From Acidobacteriota bacterium (GTDB lineage: Bacteria; Acidobacteriota; Holophagae; Holophagales; Holophagaceae), in contig JACPYP010000029.1 of assembly GCA_016195985.1 (NCBI GenBank), positions 170,092 to 234,091 on the forward strand: DNA of 64,000 nucleotides. The letters run 5' to 3'. The position numbers were made by a program, and so were the translations under genes. Position 1 is the stretch's first letter. Every line of letters starts with the position of its first letter. The notes below the pieces were generated by a model that saw only the letters and a program-made list of their open reading frames with translations, did not search any database and was not told the DNA's origin. Below are positions 49,849 through 59,811 of this stretch, piece after piece.

Positions 49849-49911
49849 GAGGACTCCCTCTGTACTCATGGTTTGGCCGGATTCGCCGAAAAGAGACCTG
49901 TGGGGGCGCCT

Positions 49912-50337
49912 GTGAACGCTTATGCCAGAACTGCTGATACCTACCTGACCCAGCGCATCCTGGCCGCCAGTCCGGAACAGCAGGCCGCGCTCATCATGGA
50001 GGCGGGCCAGCTTCACCTCGGCCGGGCCATCCAAGCCATGACGCGCAACGATCTCGTTTCGGCTGGAAGCAGTTTCATCCGGGTTTCGGAAGCCATCGTG
50101 GAAGCCAATCTCCGGCTGAACCGCGAAGATGGCGGAGAGCTGGTGCAGAACCTCGAGAAGCTCTACAACCATTGGACCTTGGAAATCATGGAAGCCAGCG
50201 CCGCCAGGGATACCCGCCGGCTGTCCGCCGTTGCCCACGCCATGGGCGAAATCCGCCAGGCATGGGAGCAGCACCACGAAAAGAAGAACGGAGCCGTTCA
50301 GCTCGCAGCCTTCCAGTTTGGGGACCGGGTCGTATGA
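49912..50337 (+). CDS. fliS: flagellar export chaperone FliS
   Basis: YARTADTYLTQRILAASPEQQAALIMEAGQLHLGRAIQAM; GGELVQNLEKLYNHW; GTG start inferred. Confidence 0.88.
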   Translation: MNAYARTADTYLTQRILAASPEQQAALIMEAGQLHLGRAIQAMTRNDLVSAGSSFIRVSEAIVEANLRLNREDGGELVQNLEKLYNHWTLEIMEASAARDTRRLSAVAHAMGEIRQAWEQHHEKKNGAVQLAAFQFGDRVV

Positions 50338-52430: not shown

Positions 52431-52578
52431 TCCCGGCTCCTGGCGGCAGGTGGCTCTGTTGTCTCACGGAACGGGGCTTTTGGGATGCGCGGGCGGGCCT
52501 TCCGCAGGGGCGGCCGGGAATCAGGGAACAGGCCTGGGCCGCCGATGGGTTGATTGGATGCGGTTCGGGGGGCGGGAG

Positions 52579-52986
52579 ATGATGTCTGGGCCAGGGCTTC
52601 GCGATGCCGCCGCTCCGGCCGAGCCTTTGGCCATTCCAGAGCATGCCGTTGTGCTCCTGATGGAGGCCGCCCAGCGGTTTCTGCTGAAACTGGAAGAAGC
52701 CCTTCAGGATCCGGACCCGAGGCTGCGGGACTACTTCGTGAAAAAGCTCCAGGCGATCTTGGATGAACTCCACCGGCGCCTGAACCACGAGGCGGGAGGT
52801 GAGCTGGTGGGCAATCTCATCCGGCTCTATGCCTGGTGGGGCTGTGAAATCGCCGGGGCCGCTGCGCAGGGCGACGCCCCCAGGCTCAGGCGCGTCTGTT
52901 CGCAGATGGACGGCATCCGCCAGGCGTGGGAGAAGGTGCTCTTCCGCGGAGAAGGCATGTCCGAGGCGCCGTCGATCTATCTCTAG
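52579..52986 (+). CDS. divergent FliS paralog
   Basis: RLNHEAGGELVGNLIRLYAWWGCEIAGAAAQGDAPRLRRVCSQMDGIRQAWEK aligns with RLNREDGGELVQNLEKLYNHWTLEIMEASAARDTRRLSAVAHAMGEIRQAWEQ of FliS. Confidence 0.75.
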   Translation: MMSGPGLRDAAAPAEPLAIPEHAVVLLMEAAQRFLLKLEEALQDPDPRLRDYFVKKLQAILDELHRRLNHEAGGELVGNLIRLYAWWGCEIAGAAAQGDAPRLRRVCSQMDGIRQAWEKVLFRGEGMSEAPSIYL

Positions 52987-53016: not shown

Positions 53017-53643
53017 CTAGGCGGTGCCGAACAGCCGGTCTCCGGCATCTCCGAGGCCCGGAAGGATGTAGCCCTTCTCGTTGAGCTGGCGGTCGACCGC
53101 GCCCACCCAGATGGTGAGGTCGGGGTGGTCGCCCTGCAGTTTTTCCAATCCTTCCGGCGCGGCGAGGAGGGCCACCAGGGTGAGATTGACGGCGCCCGCT
53201 GCCTTCAGCTGGCGCACCGCTTCAGAGGCGCTGCCTCCGGTGGCGAGCATGGGGTCCAGGATGAACACCGGACGCGCTTCGAGAAGCGGAGGGAAGTTGC
53301 GGTAGTAGGGCACCGGCACGAGAGAGTCGTGATCGCGGTAGAGGCCGAGGTGTCCCACTTTTGCCGTGGGCAGGAGCTGGAGGAAGGGCGGCAGCAGTCC
53401 CAGCCCCGCGCGCAGGACGGGCACCAACACGGGATCGAGAGACCTGAGGCGCAGCGTGCCTGTGCGTTCGAGCGGCGTCTCCACCACGACGGACTCGGTG
53501 GGAAGGGTGCGCGTCGCTTCGGCCGCGAGGATCAATCCCGTTTCTTCGATCAAGGCGCGGAAGAGGCTGCCGGGCGTCTTGCGGTCGCGGATCAAAGAGA
53601 GCTTGTGATGGACGAGCGGATGGTCGACGACGTGGATGGTCAT
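53017..53643 (-). CDS. upp: uracil phosphoribosyltransferase
   Basis: HPLVHHKLSLIRDRKTPGSLFRALIEE, PVLRAGLGL, FILDPMLATGGSASEAV, GYILPGLGDAGDRLFGT. Confidence 0.95.
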   Translation of the reverse strand: MTIHVVDHPLVHHKLSLIRDRKTPGSLFRALIEETGLILAAEATRTLPTESVVVETPLERTGTLRLRSLDPVLVPVLRAGLGLLPPFLQLLPTAKVGHLGLYRDHDSLVPVPYYRNFPPLLEARPVFILDPMLATGGSASEAVRQLKAAGAVNLTLVALLAAPEGLEKLQGDHPDLTIWVGAVDRQLNEKGYILPGLGDAGDRLFGTA

Positions 53644-54129
53644 GGGGCCTCACGGACCTTCCAGCGGGTTCCCGGAGGCCGCTCGCGCGGCGGCAGGGAG
53701 CGGAAGGCGCGTGTTGAAGCCTAGCAGGGGAGCGCCCTTCGTGGAGGGTGGATGGTGGGTTGGCGATCTTCCCCAGTGGGATGCGCGGGCGGACGACGGG
53801 ATCACATTCCGGTGTCCGCGCGAGCTGAGCCGGATCCTCGCAGACTCAGCGTTGGCGCGGAATCAAAGCGGATTCACGCGGCCGCGATCTCGGCCGGCGA
53901 GGCGCGCCTTGCGTTGCGGTCCCGCCTCAAGATCGTCCTCGGCGAGCCGAAAGGAGTGGAAACGAATGATGGGTTGGGGGGGAGGTAGCGTCAAAAAAAA
54001 TGAAGATTTTTGATATTTCTCTGTTGACCTCATCCGGATCGCTGGTTTCATGTTGAATCAGAGGAAAAACGGCCGATCATCTTCCCCATAGGGCCATTAG
54101 CGAGGTATCTGAGATTTGGAGCGTGGGAA

Positions 54130-55575
54130 ATGCTAAAGAAAGTCGCCATCTTCAAGGCCCTGGATGTAGAAATCAAAAAGCAGAAGGGCCCTGTGGCGGT
54201 AAAAGATGCCTACAAGGGTCATCACTCCTTGAAGGAAGAGCTCAGCCAGCCTGGAATCACCATTTTGGGGGAAGTCGCCGGGGGTGACCCCGGCCGGGGG
54301 CAGGTCCGGGACTCTTATAAGGCCTCGACCCACGCCAAGAGCCTGGCGGAGAACGGCGCGCGGGCCCTTTCGGTGGCAACCGATAAGTTCCTCTACTTTG
54401 GCGAGGACAAACACCTCTCTGAGGTGCGGGGCCAGGTGAAACTTCCGCTGGTGCGGAGGGAGTTCATCTTCGAGGAGTACCAGGTCGAGGAAAGCAAGAT
54501 CCTCGGCGCCGATGCCATCTTCCTCATGCCCGCCCTGCTCACCCAGGATCGCCTGCAGACCCTGCTGAAATTCGCCACCAGCAAGGGTTTGGACGTGGTG
54601 GTCGAAGTGACTTCCGAGGCGGAGCTGGCCCGGGCCGTGGAGGCCGGGGCCGACATCGTTTGTGCCGTGGGACGCAACCTGGACACCTGGGAAGCCTCCT
54701 GGGAGCAGGCGGTCTCGCTCGTGAAAAAAGTCCCCAAGAGCTGCCTGAAAATCGTTGAAGGCGGCATACATAAGCTTGATCAAATCAAGCAAATGGAAGC
54801 TATCGGGGTTCACGGTCTGCTGATCGGGGACGCCCTCCTCGATGACTACTATCCCGGCAAGCGCCTGGCTCAGATTCTGGCCGGCGTGGAGCCTCCGAAA
54901 AAAGCCGCGAAGCCCAAGGGCAAGACCGGCTCTGCCGCCGACGCGGCGTTAGCCCCCACGGCCGCTCCGGCGACCAAGGAACGCATATCCACCCAGCGTG
55001 AAGCCCAGGCCCAATCTGGCGCGAAGGATGCCAAAGGCAAGCCCGCTTCCCGCACGACCCCTTCCAACCCCGCCCAAAAGGGCGTAAAGGAGCCACCCAT
55101 GGCCGAACTGACCAACCCGGTCGCCACCACCGAAGCCCCCGCCGCCAAGAAGCCGGCGAAGAAGGCCGCCCCCAAGAAGAAGGCCGCTGCCAAGAAGCCC
55201 GCCGCCAAGAAGGCCGCTCCGAAGAAGGCCGCTGCCAAGAAGCCCGCCGCCAAGAAGGCCGCTCCGAAGAAGGCTGCCGCCAAGAAGCCCGCCGCCAAGA
55301 AGGCAGCCCCCAAGAAGGCCGCCGTGAAGAAGGCCGCGCCGAAGAAGGCCGCCGTGAAGAAGGCCGCTCCGAAGAAGGCCGCCGTGAAGAAGGCCGCGCC
55401 GAAGAAGGCCGCCGCCAAGAAGGTCGTGAAGAAGGCCGTGAAGAAGGCCGCGCCGAAGAAGGCCGCCGCCAAGAAGCCGGCCGTGAAGAAGGTCGTGAAG
55501 AAGGCCGCGCCGAAGAAGGCCGCCGCCAAGAAGCCGGCCGCCAAGAAGGTCGTGAAGAAGGCCGCGAAGAAGTAG
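54130..55575 (+). CDS. indole-3-glycerol-phosphate-synthase-like barrel fused to histone-H1-like Lys/Ala-rich tail
   Basis: LPLVRREFIFEEYQVEESKILGADAIFLM, VVEVTSEAELARAVEAGADIV, GRNLDTW, GVHGLLIGDALL; then KKAAPKKAAAKKPAAKK repeats to stop, one uninterrupted frame. Confidence 0.88.
   Translation: MLKKVAIFKALDVEIKKQKGPVAVKDAYKGHHSLKEELSQPGITILGEVAGGDPGRGQVRDSYKASTHAKSLAENGARALSVATDKFLYFGEDKHLSEVRGQVKLPLVRREFIFEEYQVEESKILGADAIFLMPALLTQDRLQTLLKFATSKGLDVVVEVTSEAELARAVEAGADIVCAVGRNLDTWEASWEQAVSLVKKVPKSCLKIVEGGIHKLDQIKQMEAIGVHGLLIGDALLDDYYPGKRLAQILAGVEPPKKAAKPKGKTGSAADAALAPTAAPATKERISTQREAQAQSGAKDAKGKPASRTTPSNPAQKGVKEPPMAELTNPVATTEAPAAKKPAKKAAPKKKAAAKKPAAKKAAPKKAAAKKPAAKKAAPKKAAAKKPAAKKAAPKKAAVKKAAPKKAAVKKAAPKKAAVKKAAPKKAAAKKVVKKAVKKAAPKKAAAKKPAVKKVVKKAAPKKAAAKKPAAKKVVKKAAKK
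55099..55575 (+). CDS. possible nested histone-H1-like protein from in-frame internal start (158 aa)
   Basis: AAAGGAG at 55086-55092, 6 nt before in-frame ATG 55099 (MAELTNPVATTEAPAAKKPAKKAAPKKK). Confidence 0.5.
   Translation: MAELTNPVATTEAPAAKKPAKKAAPKKKAAAKKPAAKKAAPKKAAAKKPAAKKAAPKKAAAKKPAAKKAAPKKAAVKKAAPKKAAVKKAAPKKAAVKKAAPKKAAAKKVVKKAVKKAAPKKAAAKKPAVKKVVKKAAPKKAAAKKPAAKKVVKKAAKK
55150..55572 (+). repeat. in-frame tandem repeats encoding AAPKKAAAKKPAAKK and AAVKKAAPKK units
   Basis: 45-bp and 30-bp-type units visible directly in the DNA. Confidence 0.9.
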
Positions 55576-55603: not shown

Positions 55604-56929
<1,326 letters not shown>

Positions 56930-56940
56930 GAGACCCCAGG

Positions 56941-57246
56941 ATGAACGCCAACTGGCTCCTGAAGTCCTCCACCCTCTGGGGAGTGCTGGGAGCCTCTGGC
57001 TTTCTGTCCCTGCTGGCCGTGCTCTTCTCCCAGGGAGGGCTGCCCGAGCTTCGCAAGCGCGAAGCGGAACTGCAGACGGCCCGCACCCGGCTGCTGGAGC
57101 TGAACCACCGCAACCGCGAGCTGCTGGAGGAAGTCCAGCGGCTTGCGGCCAAGGATCCTGAACTGATGGAGGCCCTGGCCCGGCGCCAGGGCTATGCGCG
57201 CAAGGGCGAGACCGTCTACACGTTCCGCAGCAGCCGGGAACGGTGA
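56941..57246 (+). CDS. septum formation initiator / DivIC-FtsB-like
   Basis: Short protein: TM then coiled coil ELRKREAELQTARTRLLELNHRNRELLEEVQRL, KGETVYTF. Confidence 0.75.
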   Translation: MNANWLLKSSTLWGVLGASGFLSLLAVLFSQGGLPELRKREAELQTARTRLLELNHRNRELLEEVQRLAAKDPELMEALARRQGYARKGETVYTFRSSRER

Positions 57247-57247
57247 C

Positions 57248-58051
57248 TTGGAGCTCCACCTCGCTTCCGCTTCGGGCAATGTCTTCGGCTACCTCTGGGC
57301 CGATGAGGCTAAAGATTGCCCTGGCGATGATTACGCGAAATTGCTGTGTCCGAAGGGACACGGGTTTGGATTAGATGGCCTTTTTTTGATGCAAAGGCCC
57401 GATTCCGGTCCCTGGCGGTTGGAGCACTGGGATGTGGATGGTGCTAAGACCTTTTGTTCCAACGGTAGTAGAGCGGCGAGGGTGCTCTCCGGCGCCCCAG
57501 GCGGCAACGAAATCCAGGTGCGCTCCAACGGCGAGGACATCCGGCTTCGACGCGATGGCGATGATGTCGGCATCCGCATGCCCGAGGGTGAAGGTTTCGG
57601 TTTGCGCGCAGTGCCCATGCCGACAGCGCTGCCCGCAGGCTTCGGCTGGATTGGGAATCCGCAGCTGGTCCTGCGCGTGCCGTCCGTGGCCGCGGTGGAC
57701 CTGCCGGCGTTCGCGCCACCGTTGCGGCACCATCCGGCGCTGCAAGGCGGCACCAACGTGAACGTGGTGGAGGTGCTGGCCCCGGGCGAAGCGCGGATCC
57801 GCTCCTGGGAGCGGGGCGTGGAGGGCGAGACTCTTTGCTGCGGCACCGGAAGCGCTGTGGCCGCGGCCTGGCTGGCGAGCACGGAAGGCATCACCGCGTG
57901 GCGCCTCCACACCGCCAGCGGCGAGGCGGTGAAGGTGAAGCTCGGCCTGGATGCGACGGGCGCCTGGCGCAACCTCTGGCTCTCCGGCCCGGCCCGGAGG
58001 CTGGGTGTCGTGCATCCCGATCCAGCGCTGCTCCAGCGGCTCCGGAGCTGA
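57248..58051 (+). CDS. dapF: divergent diaminopimelate epimerase family protein
   Basis: SASGNVFGYLW, FCSNGSRAAR, GGTNVNVVEV, RSWERGVEGETLCCGTGSAVAAAW; TTG start inferred. Confidence 0.72.
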   Translation: MELHLASASGNVFGYLWADEAKDCPGDDYAKLLCPKGHGFGLDGLFLMQRPDSGPWRLEHWDVDGAKTFCSNGSRAARVLSGAPGGNEIQVRSNGEDIRLRRDGDDVGIRMPEGEGFGLRAVPMPTALPAGFGWIGNPQLVLRVPSVAAVDLPAFAPPLRHHPALQGGTNVNVVEVLAPGEARIRSWERGVEGETLCCGTGSAVAAAWLASTEGITAWRLHTASGEAVKVKLGLDATGAWRNLWLSGPARRLGVVHPDPALLQRLRS

Positions 58052-58165
58052 TCACAGCGGCCTCCGCCGTGGAACCCCGACCTGCTAGACTGGCATGTTC
58101 CACACCCGAGGGGATGCCGAGATGGTTGGTTCCACCAGCACCTGCGCGATGATGAGGGCCGCCTG

Positions 58166-58945
58166 ATGCGCGCCCGGGTGGTGGTGTTGGCGAACCAGAA
58201 GGGCGGGGTGGGCAAGACCACCACGGCCATCAACCTCGCGGCGTCTCTTGCGATGATGGAGAAGATGGTGCTGCTGGTGGATTTCGATCCCCAAGGCCAC
58301 AGCACCACCGGACTCGGCTTCCCCAAGCCGGACCACCGCGCGGGTTCCTACGCGTTGATGAAGGGCGCGCCAGCGGAGGCGCTGCTTCTCAGCACGGAAG
58401 TGCCCATGATGCAGGTGATCCCGGCGGGCAAGGATCTGGCGCAGCTGGAATTCGAACTCTTCGAGATGCCCCAGCTCCAGGTGCTCAAGCAGGGACTGGC
58501 CCCGGTCATGGACCGCTTCGACTACATCATCATCGACCCCCCGCCCAGCCTGGGAATGATCACCCTGAACGCGCTCACGGCGGCGGACGAGGTCATCGTT
58601 CCCATGCCCTGCGAGTTCTTCGCGCTGGACGGCCTGGCCGAGCTCACCGAGACGCTGAGGCGCATCCAATCCGGCCCCAATCCCCAGCTGCAACTGGGGG
58701 GCATCCTGCTGACCATGGCGGAGGAGCGCACCAATCTGGGAGCCGCCGTCGCCAGCGAAGTGCGCCACGCCTTCCCGGGGAAGGTCTTCCAGACCATCAT
58801 CCCCCGCAACATCCGGCTGGCCGAAGCCCCCAGCCACGGCAAGCCCGTGGCCTTCTACGATCTGCGCTCCAAGGGCGCCCAGGCCTACCTCAGCCTCGCG
58901 AAGGAATGGCTGGGCCTGGAGCTCCCCGCGAGGAGGGAAGCCTAA
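58166..58945 (+). CDS. parA: ParA/Soj chromosome partitioning ATPase
   Basis: [51 protein letters not shown]. Confidence 0.96.
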
Positions 58946-59811
58946 TGACTCAGTTGAAGCGTCCGGCGCTGGGCCGGGGACTCACTTCGCTCATGAGCCA
59001 GATGGCTCCAGAGGATGCGAATCAGCGCGAGCTGCCCCTGGGCAGCATGGTGCCCAACCGCGCCCAGCCCCGCACCCACTTCGACGAGGCGGCTTTGGCC
59101 GAGCTGGCCGAAAGCTTGAAGCAGCACGGCATGGTGCAGCCCATCGTGGTGCGGAAGGTGGGCGACAAGTTCGAGATCATCGCCGGCGAGCGCCGCTGGC
59201 GGGCGGCGCGCAAGGCGGGCCTCGCCATGGCGCCGGTCATCATCAAGGAAGTGCCCGACGACAAGCTGCTGGAGATCGCCCTGGTCGAGAACATCCAGCG
59301 CCAGGAGCTGAACCCCATCGAAGAGGCCACGGCCTACTGGCAGCTGGGCGAGCATCTGCGGCTCACCCAGGAGCAGGTGGCCGACCGCGTGGGCAAGTCC
59401 CGGCCCCAGGTGGCCAACACCCTCCGCCTGCTGCGGCTCCCCGCGGAGCTGAAGGCCGAGGTGGCGGATGGACGCCTCAGCACCGGCCATGCGAAGGTCC
59501 TGCTCGGCGTGGCGGACCTCCGCCTCCAGGAGCAGCTGGCCCAGGAAGTGGTGGATCAGCAGCTGAGCGTCCGCGCCCTGGAAGCCCGGATCCAGCAGCT
59601 CCAAAAACAGACCAAGGCCAAGTCCAAGAAGAAGCACCCTCAGGAGCTGTTCATCAAGGCCGCCGCCGAGGAGCTCACCCAGTCTTGGGGCACGCGGGTT
59701 GAGATCAAGGCCAAGGGCAAAACCGGCACCCTGGTGATGCACTACGGCAGCGAAGGCGAACTGGATCGCCTCTTCGAGGCCCTCAAGCACGGTCCGGCGA
59801 AGCGCCGCTAG
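58945..59811 (+). CDS. parB: ParB/Spo0J chromosome partitioning protein
   Basis: RPALGRGLTSLM, PNRAQPRTHFDE, IIAGERRWRAARKAG, ALVENIQRQELNPIEEA. Confidence 0.96.
   Translation: MTQLKRPALGRGLTSLMSQMAPEDANQRELPLGSMVPNRAQPRTHFDEAALAELAESLKQHGMVQPIVVRKVGDKFEIIAGERRWRAARKAGLAMAPVIIKEVPDDKLLEIALVENIQRQELNPIEEATAYWQLGEHLRLTQEQVADRVGKSRPQVANTLRLLRLPAELKAEVADGRLSTGHAKVLLGVADLRLQEQLAQEVVDQQLSVRALEARIQQLQKQTKAKSKKKHPQELFIKAAAEELTQSWGTRVEIKAKGKTGTLVMHYGSEGELDRLFEALKHGPAKRR

Follow-up and report, generated by a model that had tools for sequence, protein, structure and literature searches.

The window (the whole 64,000-nucleotide stretch of Acidobacteriota DNA that was analyzed) carries at 54130..55575, on the plus strand, a long frame of 481 amino acids (computed pI 10.2) that joins a TrpC-like barrel, a linker, and an H1-like tail and is kept in 11 genera. 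The first-pass annotation had described one 481-codon frame here, and the frame, its coordinates, and the motifs quoted were all present in the sequence. A possible Shine-Dalgarno sequence of the long product, GGAG, lies at 54118..54121 (plus strand), with the ATG 8 nt further on. The gene is preceded by a divergent upp (uracil phosphoribosyltransferase; 53017..53643, minus strand; PF14681) and followed by eno (enolase; 55649..56929, plus strand; PF00113/PF03952), a conserved neighbor found after the barrel-H1 gene in the same order in related loci.

The stretch downstream (55649-59811) holds eno, a short frame resembling FtsB by eye, a DapF-like frame, parA, parB, and accD. This order places the H1-like gene a few kilobases from chromosome partition genes, and ParA-like frames also follow the barrel-H1 gene in two related loci (L037 and L041). 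No parS site was found near parAB within the window, allowing up to 3 mismatches. On the other side, two frames of the FliS family of flagellar chaperones (49873-50337 and 52507-52986) are near one another, separated by a TPR-repeat protein encoded on the opposite strand.

Barrel and tail were found together in all 11 sampled genera of Holophagaceae, a family from soil and sediment, among them Geothrix and Holophaga. Across 297 genomes of the phylum, profile scores ranged from 470 to 506 bits within Holophagaceae and did not exceed 162 bits outside, and the other two families of the class gave no orthologue, just ordinary TrpC-level matches or none. Conservation of the fusion across Holophagae, a point raised at first pass, thus held in all sampled Holophagaceae genera but was not seen in the rest of the class. 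Five incomplete genomes were without the gene. In one of them, eno begins at base 173 of its contig (G021), in another a contig end falls within the tail (G059), and no eno was found in the other three (G034, G010, and G027); these absences therefore look like assembly gaps, and gene loss was rejected. In one further genome that appeared to lack the gene (G015), the sole eno match was just 60% identical. An ancestral standalone H1 gene beside eno was looked for in four genomes from the other two families, and none was found.

The first 250 residues (54130..54879, plus strand) were assigned to an IGPS-fold TIM barrel by alignment, AlphaFold2, and Foldseek. Residues 13-239 match the Pfam IGPS family PF00218 (E 9.2e-50), the AlphaFold2 model is a TIM barrel (pLDDT 81, pTM 0.81), and the best natural Foldseek matches are IGPS enzymes. 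The window's barrel carries substitutions at K53 (A50), S56 (D53), K110 (R110), N180 (V), and S211 (G) and keeps E48, E159, R182, and E210. To place these changes, 17 barrel paralogues were aligned to 21 canonical TrpCs. K53 was replaced by A or S and K110 by R, Q, or H in 17/17 paralogues, where all 21 canonical enzymes have lysine at both positions; similarly, N180 had become V or L and S211 A, G, or C in every paralogue, with both residues kept in every canonical TrpC. S56 was gone in 14 of the 17. E51, R182, and E210 were invariant among the paralogues, as was E159 in 16 of them, the remaining one having Gln. The altered active-site motifs reported at first pass were thus borne out for K53, K110, N180, and S211, whereas E51, E159, R182, and E210 proved mostly kept once aligned. 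In a tree with canonical TrpCs, the barrel paralogues grouped as a single clade with 100/100 support, and the branch of this clade is long (1.81). We also observed that the canonical TrpC of Holophagaceae (L001, G000:C18) has longer tree branches than the catalytically dead paralogue and is seemingly faster-evolving.

A second, canonical trpC, which the first-pass annotation had thought worth searching for, is present in the same genome within a trp cluster, beside trpD- and trpF-like frames and with trpB on the same contig. The barrel-H1 gene itself, between upp and eno, is outside any trp cluster. Two genomes of ~1.2 Mb at 96-97% completeness (G001 and G002) keep the gene and gave no trpC or trpB match, and in a third (G074), trpB is also absent and no second IGPS match was found. 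Retention in genomes without trpC and trpB makes a role in tryptophan synthesis very unlikely, and the gene very likely serves something else. The proposal that the barrel has probably lost IGPS catalysis is well supported by the sequence comparisons, because both catalytic lysines are gone family-wide, a separate intact trpC exists, and the gene persists where trpC and trpB are missing. The fold and the family match might suggest a working TrpC with unusual residues, but the same three observations make this extremely improbable, and it was rejected on the catalytic-residue alignment. It is also unlikely that the barrel is enzymatically active with an altered reaction, its tail anchoring it to nucleic acid or polyphosphate. 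Such an enzyme would fit the high conservation of the barrel and the retention in its pocket of three glutamates (E159 in 16/17) and R182; however, the barrel has neither of the lysines used in IGPS chemistry, and no new residue has become fixed at position 110, which is R, Q, or H.

At the other end of the frame, residues 368-480 resemble HC2 (PF07382; E 2e-6, 28.5 bits with the 481-aa query), below the gathering cut-off of 40. In the genome search, the HC2 score was 38.8, or 40.2 including neighbors, against the same cut-off, which was exceeded in 31 of the 94 genomes of the class. The source genome has no HC2 match besides the tail, and the majority of HC2 matches in Holophagaceae fall at the barrel-H1 locus, though the HC2 and H1 matches to the tail owe much to its Lys/Ala/Pro composition. 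By analogy, the tail may bind DNA, with RNA or polyphosphate as possible alternatives.

Barrel and tail are connected by a basic linker of 73 codons (54880..55098, plus strand) that is in frame in all relatives. Among them it comes in 13 different lengths (54-80 codons) that all preserve the frame, no stop occurs in any of 63 alleles, and in Geothrix its first part varies mostly at third codon positions, like the barrel. No coding constraint is seen over one segment (codons about 290-300, or roughly bases 870-900 of the frame). The first-pass annotation had considered that a sequencing error might have removed a stop codon between the two parts; this was ruled out, as no stop interrupts the fused frame in any of the 63 distinct alleles, which come from 11 genera. 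The in-frame lengths and the third-position variation together argue for selection on the long frame as well. They likewise speak against the H1-like protein being the functional product and the barrel a separate function, the joined frame being incidental or proteolysed. The unconstrained segment and the internal start described below, a complete initiation site, would suit this explanation, but thirteen lengths kept in frame, the lack of any stop, and the coding constraint on the first part of the linker make it rather unlikely.

The linker also contains a conserved start signal of the form AAGGAG-N6-ATG. The Shine-Dalgarno sequence AAGGAG (55087..55092, plus strand) is identical in 62/62 distinct motif-bearing alleles. 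It is always separated by 6 nt from the start codon, which is at 55099 in the window and reads ATG in 60 alleles and GTG in two of Holophaga type, where the residue becomes Val. Only one allele of the 63 (L039) is without the motif. From this start, a nested in-frame gene (55099..55575, plus strand) would encode an H1/HC2-like protein of 158 aa (15.9 kDa, computed pI 11.3) made up of 39% Lys and 38% Ala. At the protein level, the site reads K-E-x-x-M in almost every allele, mostly as K-G-x-K-E-x-x-M. Recognition of the motif relied on this protein pattern, so that the residues K-E are given in advance but their codons are free to vary; AAG-GAG was nevertheless used every time, even in genes dominated by AAA and GAA (such as L045 and L048). 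The 14 codons directly before the ATG (55057..55098, plus strand) are free of synonymous change across 37 distinct Geothrix-type alleles, whereas invariance extends to just 11% of the codons in the barrel; elsewhere in the aligned region, synonymously invariant runs reach at most 4 codons, and the invariance stops at the internal ATG. No sigma-70-like internal promoter was found within the linker.

Some tails depart from the usual form. The Holophaga-type allele that has lost the internal start (L039, genome G052) ends in a tail that is less basic and in which acidic and basic repeats alternate (DPTPVPDSD/AKKTAVAKK). In a Holophagaceae group with genomes of 0.9-1.2 Mb and no recognizable trpB or trpC (G001-G003; L045, L046, and L047), the H1-like tail is down to 29-33 aa, and the internal Shine-Dalgarno sequence is retained.

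Three bases upstream of the Shine-Dalgarno sequence lies an RNA hairpin, GCCC-AAAA-GGGC (55072..55083, plus strand), of the general form GCCC-NNNN-GGGC, whose loop is GNRA-type in most genera other than the window's. From 24 diverse sequences, RNAalifold predicted exactly these four pairs; 99% of cells are paired, two of the pairs carry double-sided changes, and the signal drops sharply when the partners are slid. Since the compensatory changes come from Holophaga-type sequences and L048, they rest on few lineages. No Rfam family matched the hairpin region, and the full hairpin, Shine-Dalgarno, and start pattern occurs once in the genome, with no second instance elsewhere. A possible second hairpin, GCCA-CCCA-TGGC, surrounds the start codon (55092..55103, plus strand) and in other genera takes the form GTTCC/GGAAC or GTCC/GGAC. 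It is present in 14 of 16 representatives; however, comparable starts have one by chance at a rate of 12-17%, and the registers differ between clades, so that it is only suggestive. A helix masking the Shine-Dalgarno sequence (A2 columns 31-33 with 57-59) is compatible with most sequences but has no double-sided change and is therefore not claimed.

Both signs of a nested gene are thus present at the locus, namely a conserved internal Shine-Dalgarno sequence with its start codon and a nucleotide-level constraint on the initiation region. We conclude that the internal initiation site and the long frame are both under selection. The conserved initiation signals indicate that the H1-like tail is probably a gene in its own right, also made without the barrel. 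The first-pass interpretation, well supported as to the loss of IGPS catalysis, was incomplete, because a conserved hairpin, Shine-Dalgarno sequence, and start codon sit inside the linker and the start at 55099 had been missed. It is quite unlikely that only the fusion is made and that the internal AAGGAG-ATG and the hairpin serve to slow ribosomes for barrel folding, or DNA-level regulation. Internal Shine-Dalgarno-like sequences can affect elongation, every genus has the fused frame, and the linker lengths remain in frame, all of which such an explanation would accommodate; on the other hand, the distance to the start is always 6 nt, the codon is start-like, being only ATG or GTG (even where it is read as Val, in Holophaga), and the synonymous invariance ends at the ATG.

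We therefore consider it likely, from the conservation pattern, that this is a family-specific two-product gene, encoding a barrel-H1 fusion and a separate H1/HC2-like protein of ~158 aa. Translation from 54130 would yield a pseudoenzyme, an IGPS-fold barrel lacking the catalytic lysines and followed by a disordered, H1-like polycationic tail. Initiation at 55099, from the strong Shine-Dalgarno sequence by the conserved hairpin, would produce the tail without the barrel, as a free nucleoid-type protein resembling H1/HC2. A polyanion-binding region would be common to both forms, so that the cell would contain free H1-like packaging protein along with a subset of molecules bearing a folded barrel. 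The upstream start would set the fusion at a different, probably smaller, amount than the free protein, and the barrel on some of the molecules might act as an oligomerizer, a partner-docking site, or a ligand sensor. That the basic tail tethers the barrel, as proposed at first pass, is plausible for the long product; metabolite sensing, also proposed there, is more speculative. The shrinkage of the tail in the reduced genomes counts against the two-product reading, since the predicted short product there would have a length of just 29-33 aa. The allele without the internal start (L039), the largely compositional HC2 and H1 matches with the sub-cut-off score of the 481-aa protein, and the unconstrained linker segment also count against it. 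It is very doubtful, though conceivable, that the start-region hairpins form a translational switch, in which the tail of the fusion would read its own mRNA and a metabolite-gated barrel would set the level of free H1-like protein; if so, a retired TrpC barrel would govern the amount of that protein.

If two products are made, the locus would be an example of a biosynthetic enzyme fold recruited into a chromatin-type protein. It would also be a clear-cut and conserved instance of a single bacterial frame that apparently specifies a histone-like protein as well as the fusion of that protein to a folded domain. Gene callers that keep the longest frame only would overlook the short protein, the sole recognizable H1/HC2-like protein of the source genome. 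The locus also carries a compact, testable RNA initiation element. Among the papers searched, none linked IGPS to an H1-like protein in the same gene, and none described a dead TrpC barrel combined with a nested histone-like protein and a conserved hairpin for initiation.

Several known systems share parts of this arrangement. With TrpC/IGPS (PF00218), the barrel shares the TIM-barrel fold, family-level similarity, and the equivalents of E51, E159, R182, and E210; unlike TrpC, it is without K53, K110, N180, and S211, stands apart from any trp cluster, bears an H1-like tail, and coexists with a canonical TrpC. The tail resembles chlamydial Hc2/HctB and other H1-like proteins (PF07382, NF038053) in its lysine/alanine-rich repeats of variable number; the size of Hc2 is reported to vary through lysine-rich pentamers (PMC2848022). 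Unlike Hc2/HctB, the tail protein would arise in frame from within a longer barrel-fusion gene, and the likeness may be compositional only. In AlgP and PhaF of Pseudomonas, as here, a KPAA-type H1-like C-terminal region is joined to an unrelated N-terminal domain. A C-terminal fragment of AlgP binds DNA, and AlgP associates with and places polyphosphate granules (PMC9239181). The gene described here differs from AlgP and PhaF in having an IGPS-fold barrel as its N-terminal part and a separate, conserved start for the tail. Finally, in-frame pairs of long and short products from one bacterial frame with two starts, as suggested here, include IF2 alpha/beta from infB and CheA L/S (PMC11005335), so that this kind of arrangement is known. 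Unlike in IF2 and CheA, the short form here would be a separate polycationic protein from which the folded domain is missing entirely, and a conserved, covarying hairpin lies at its initiation region.
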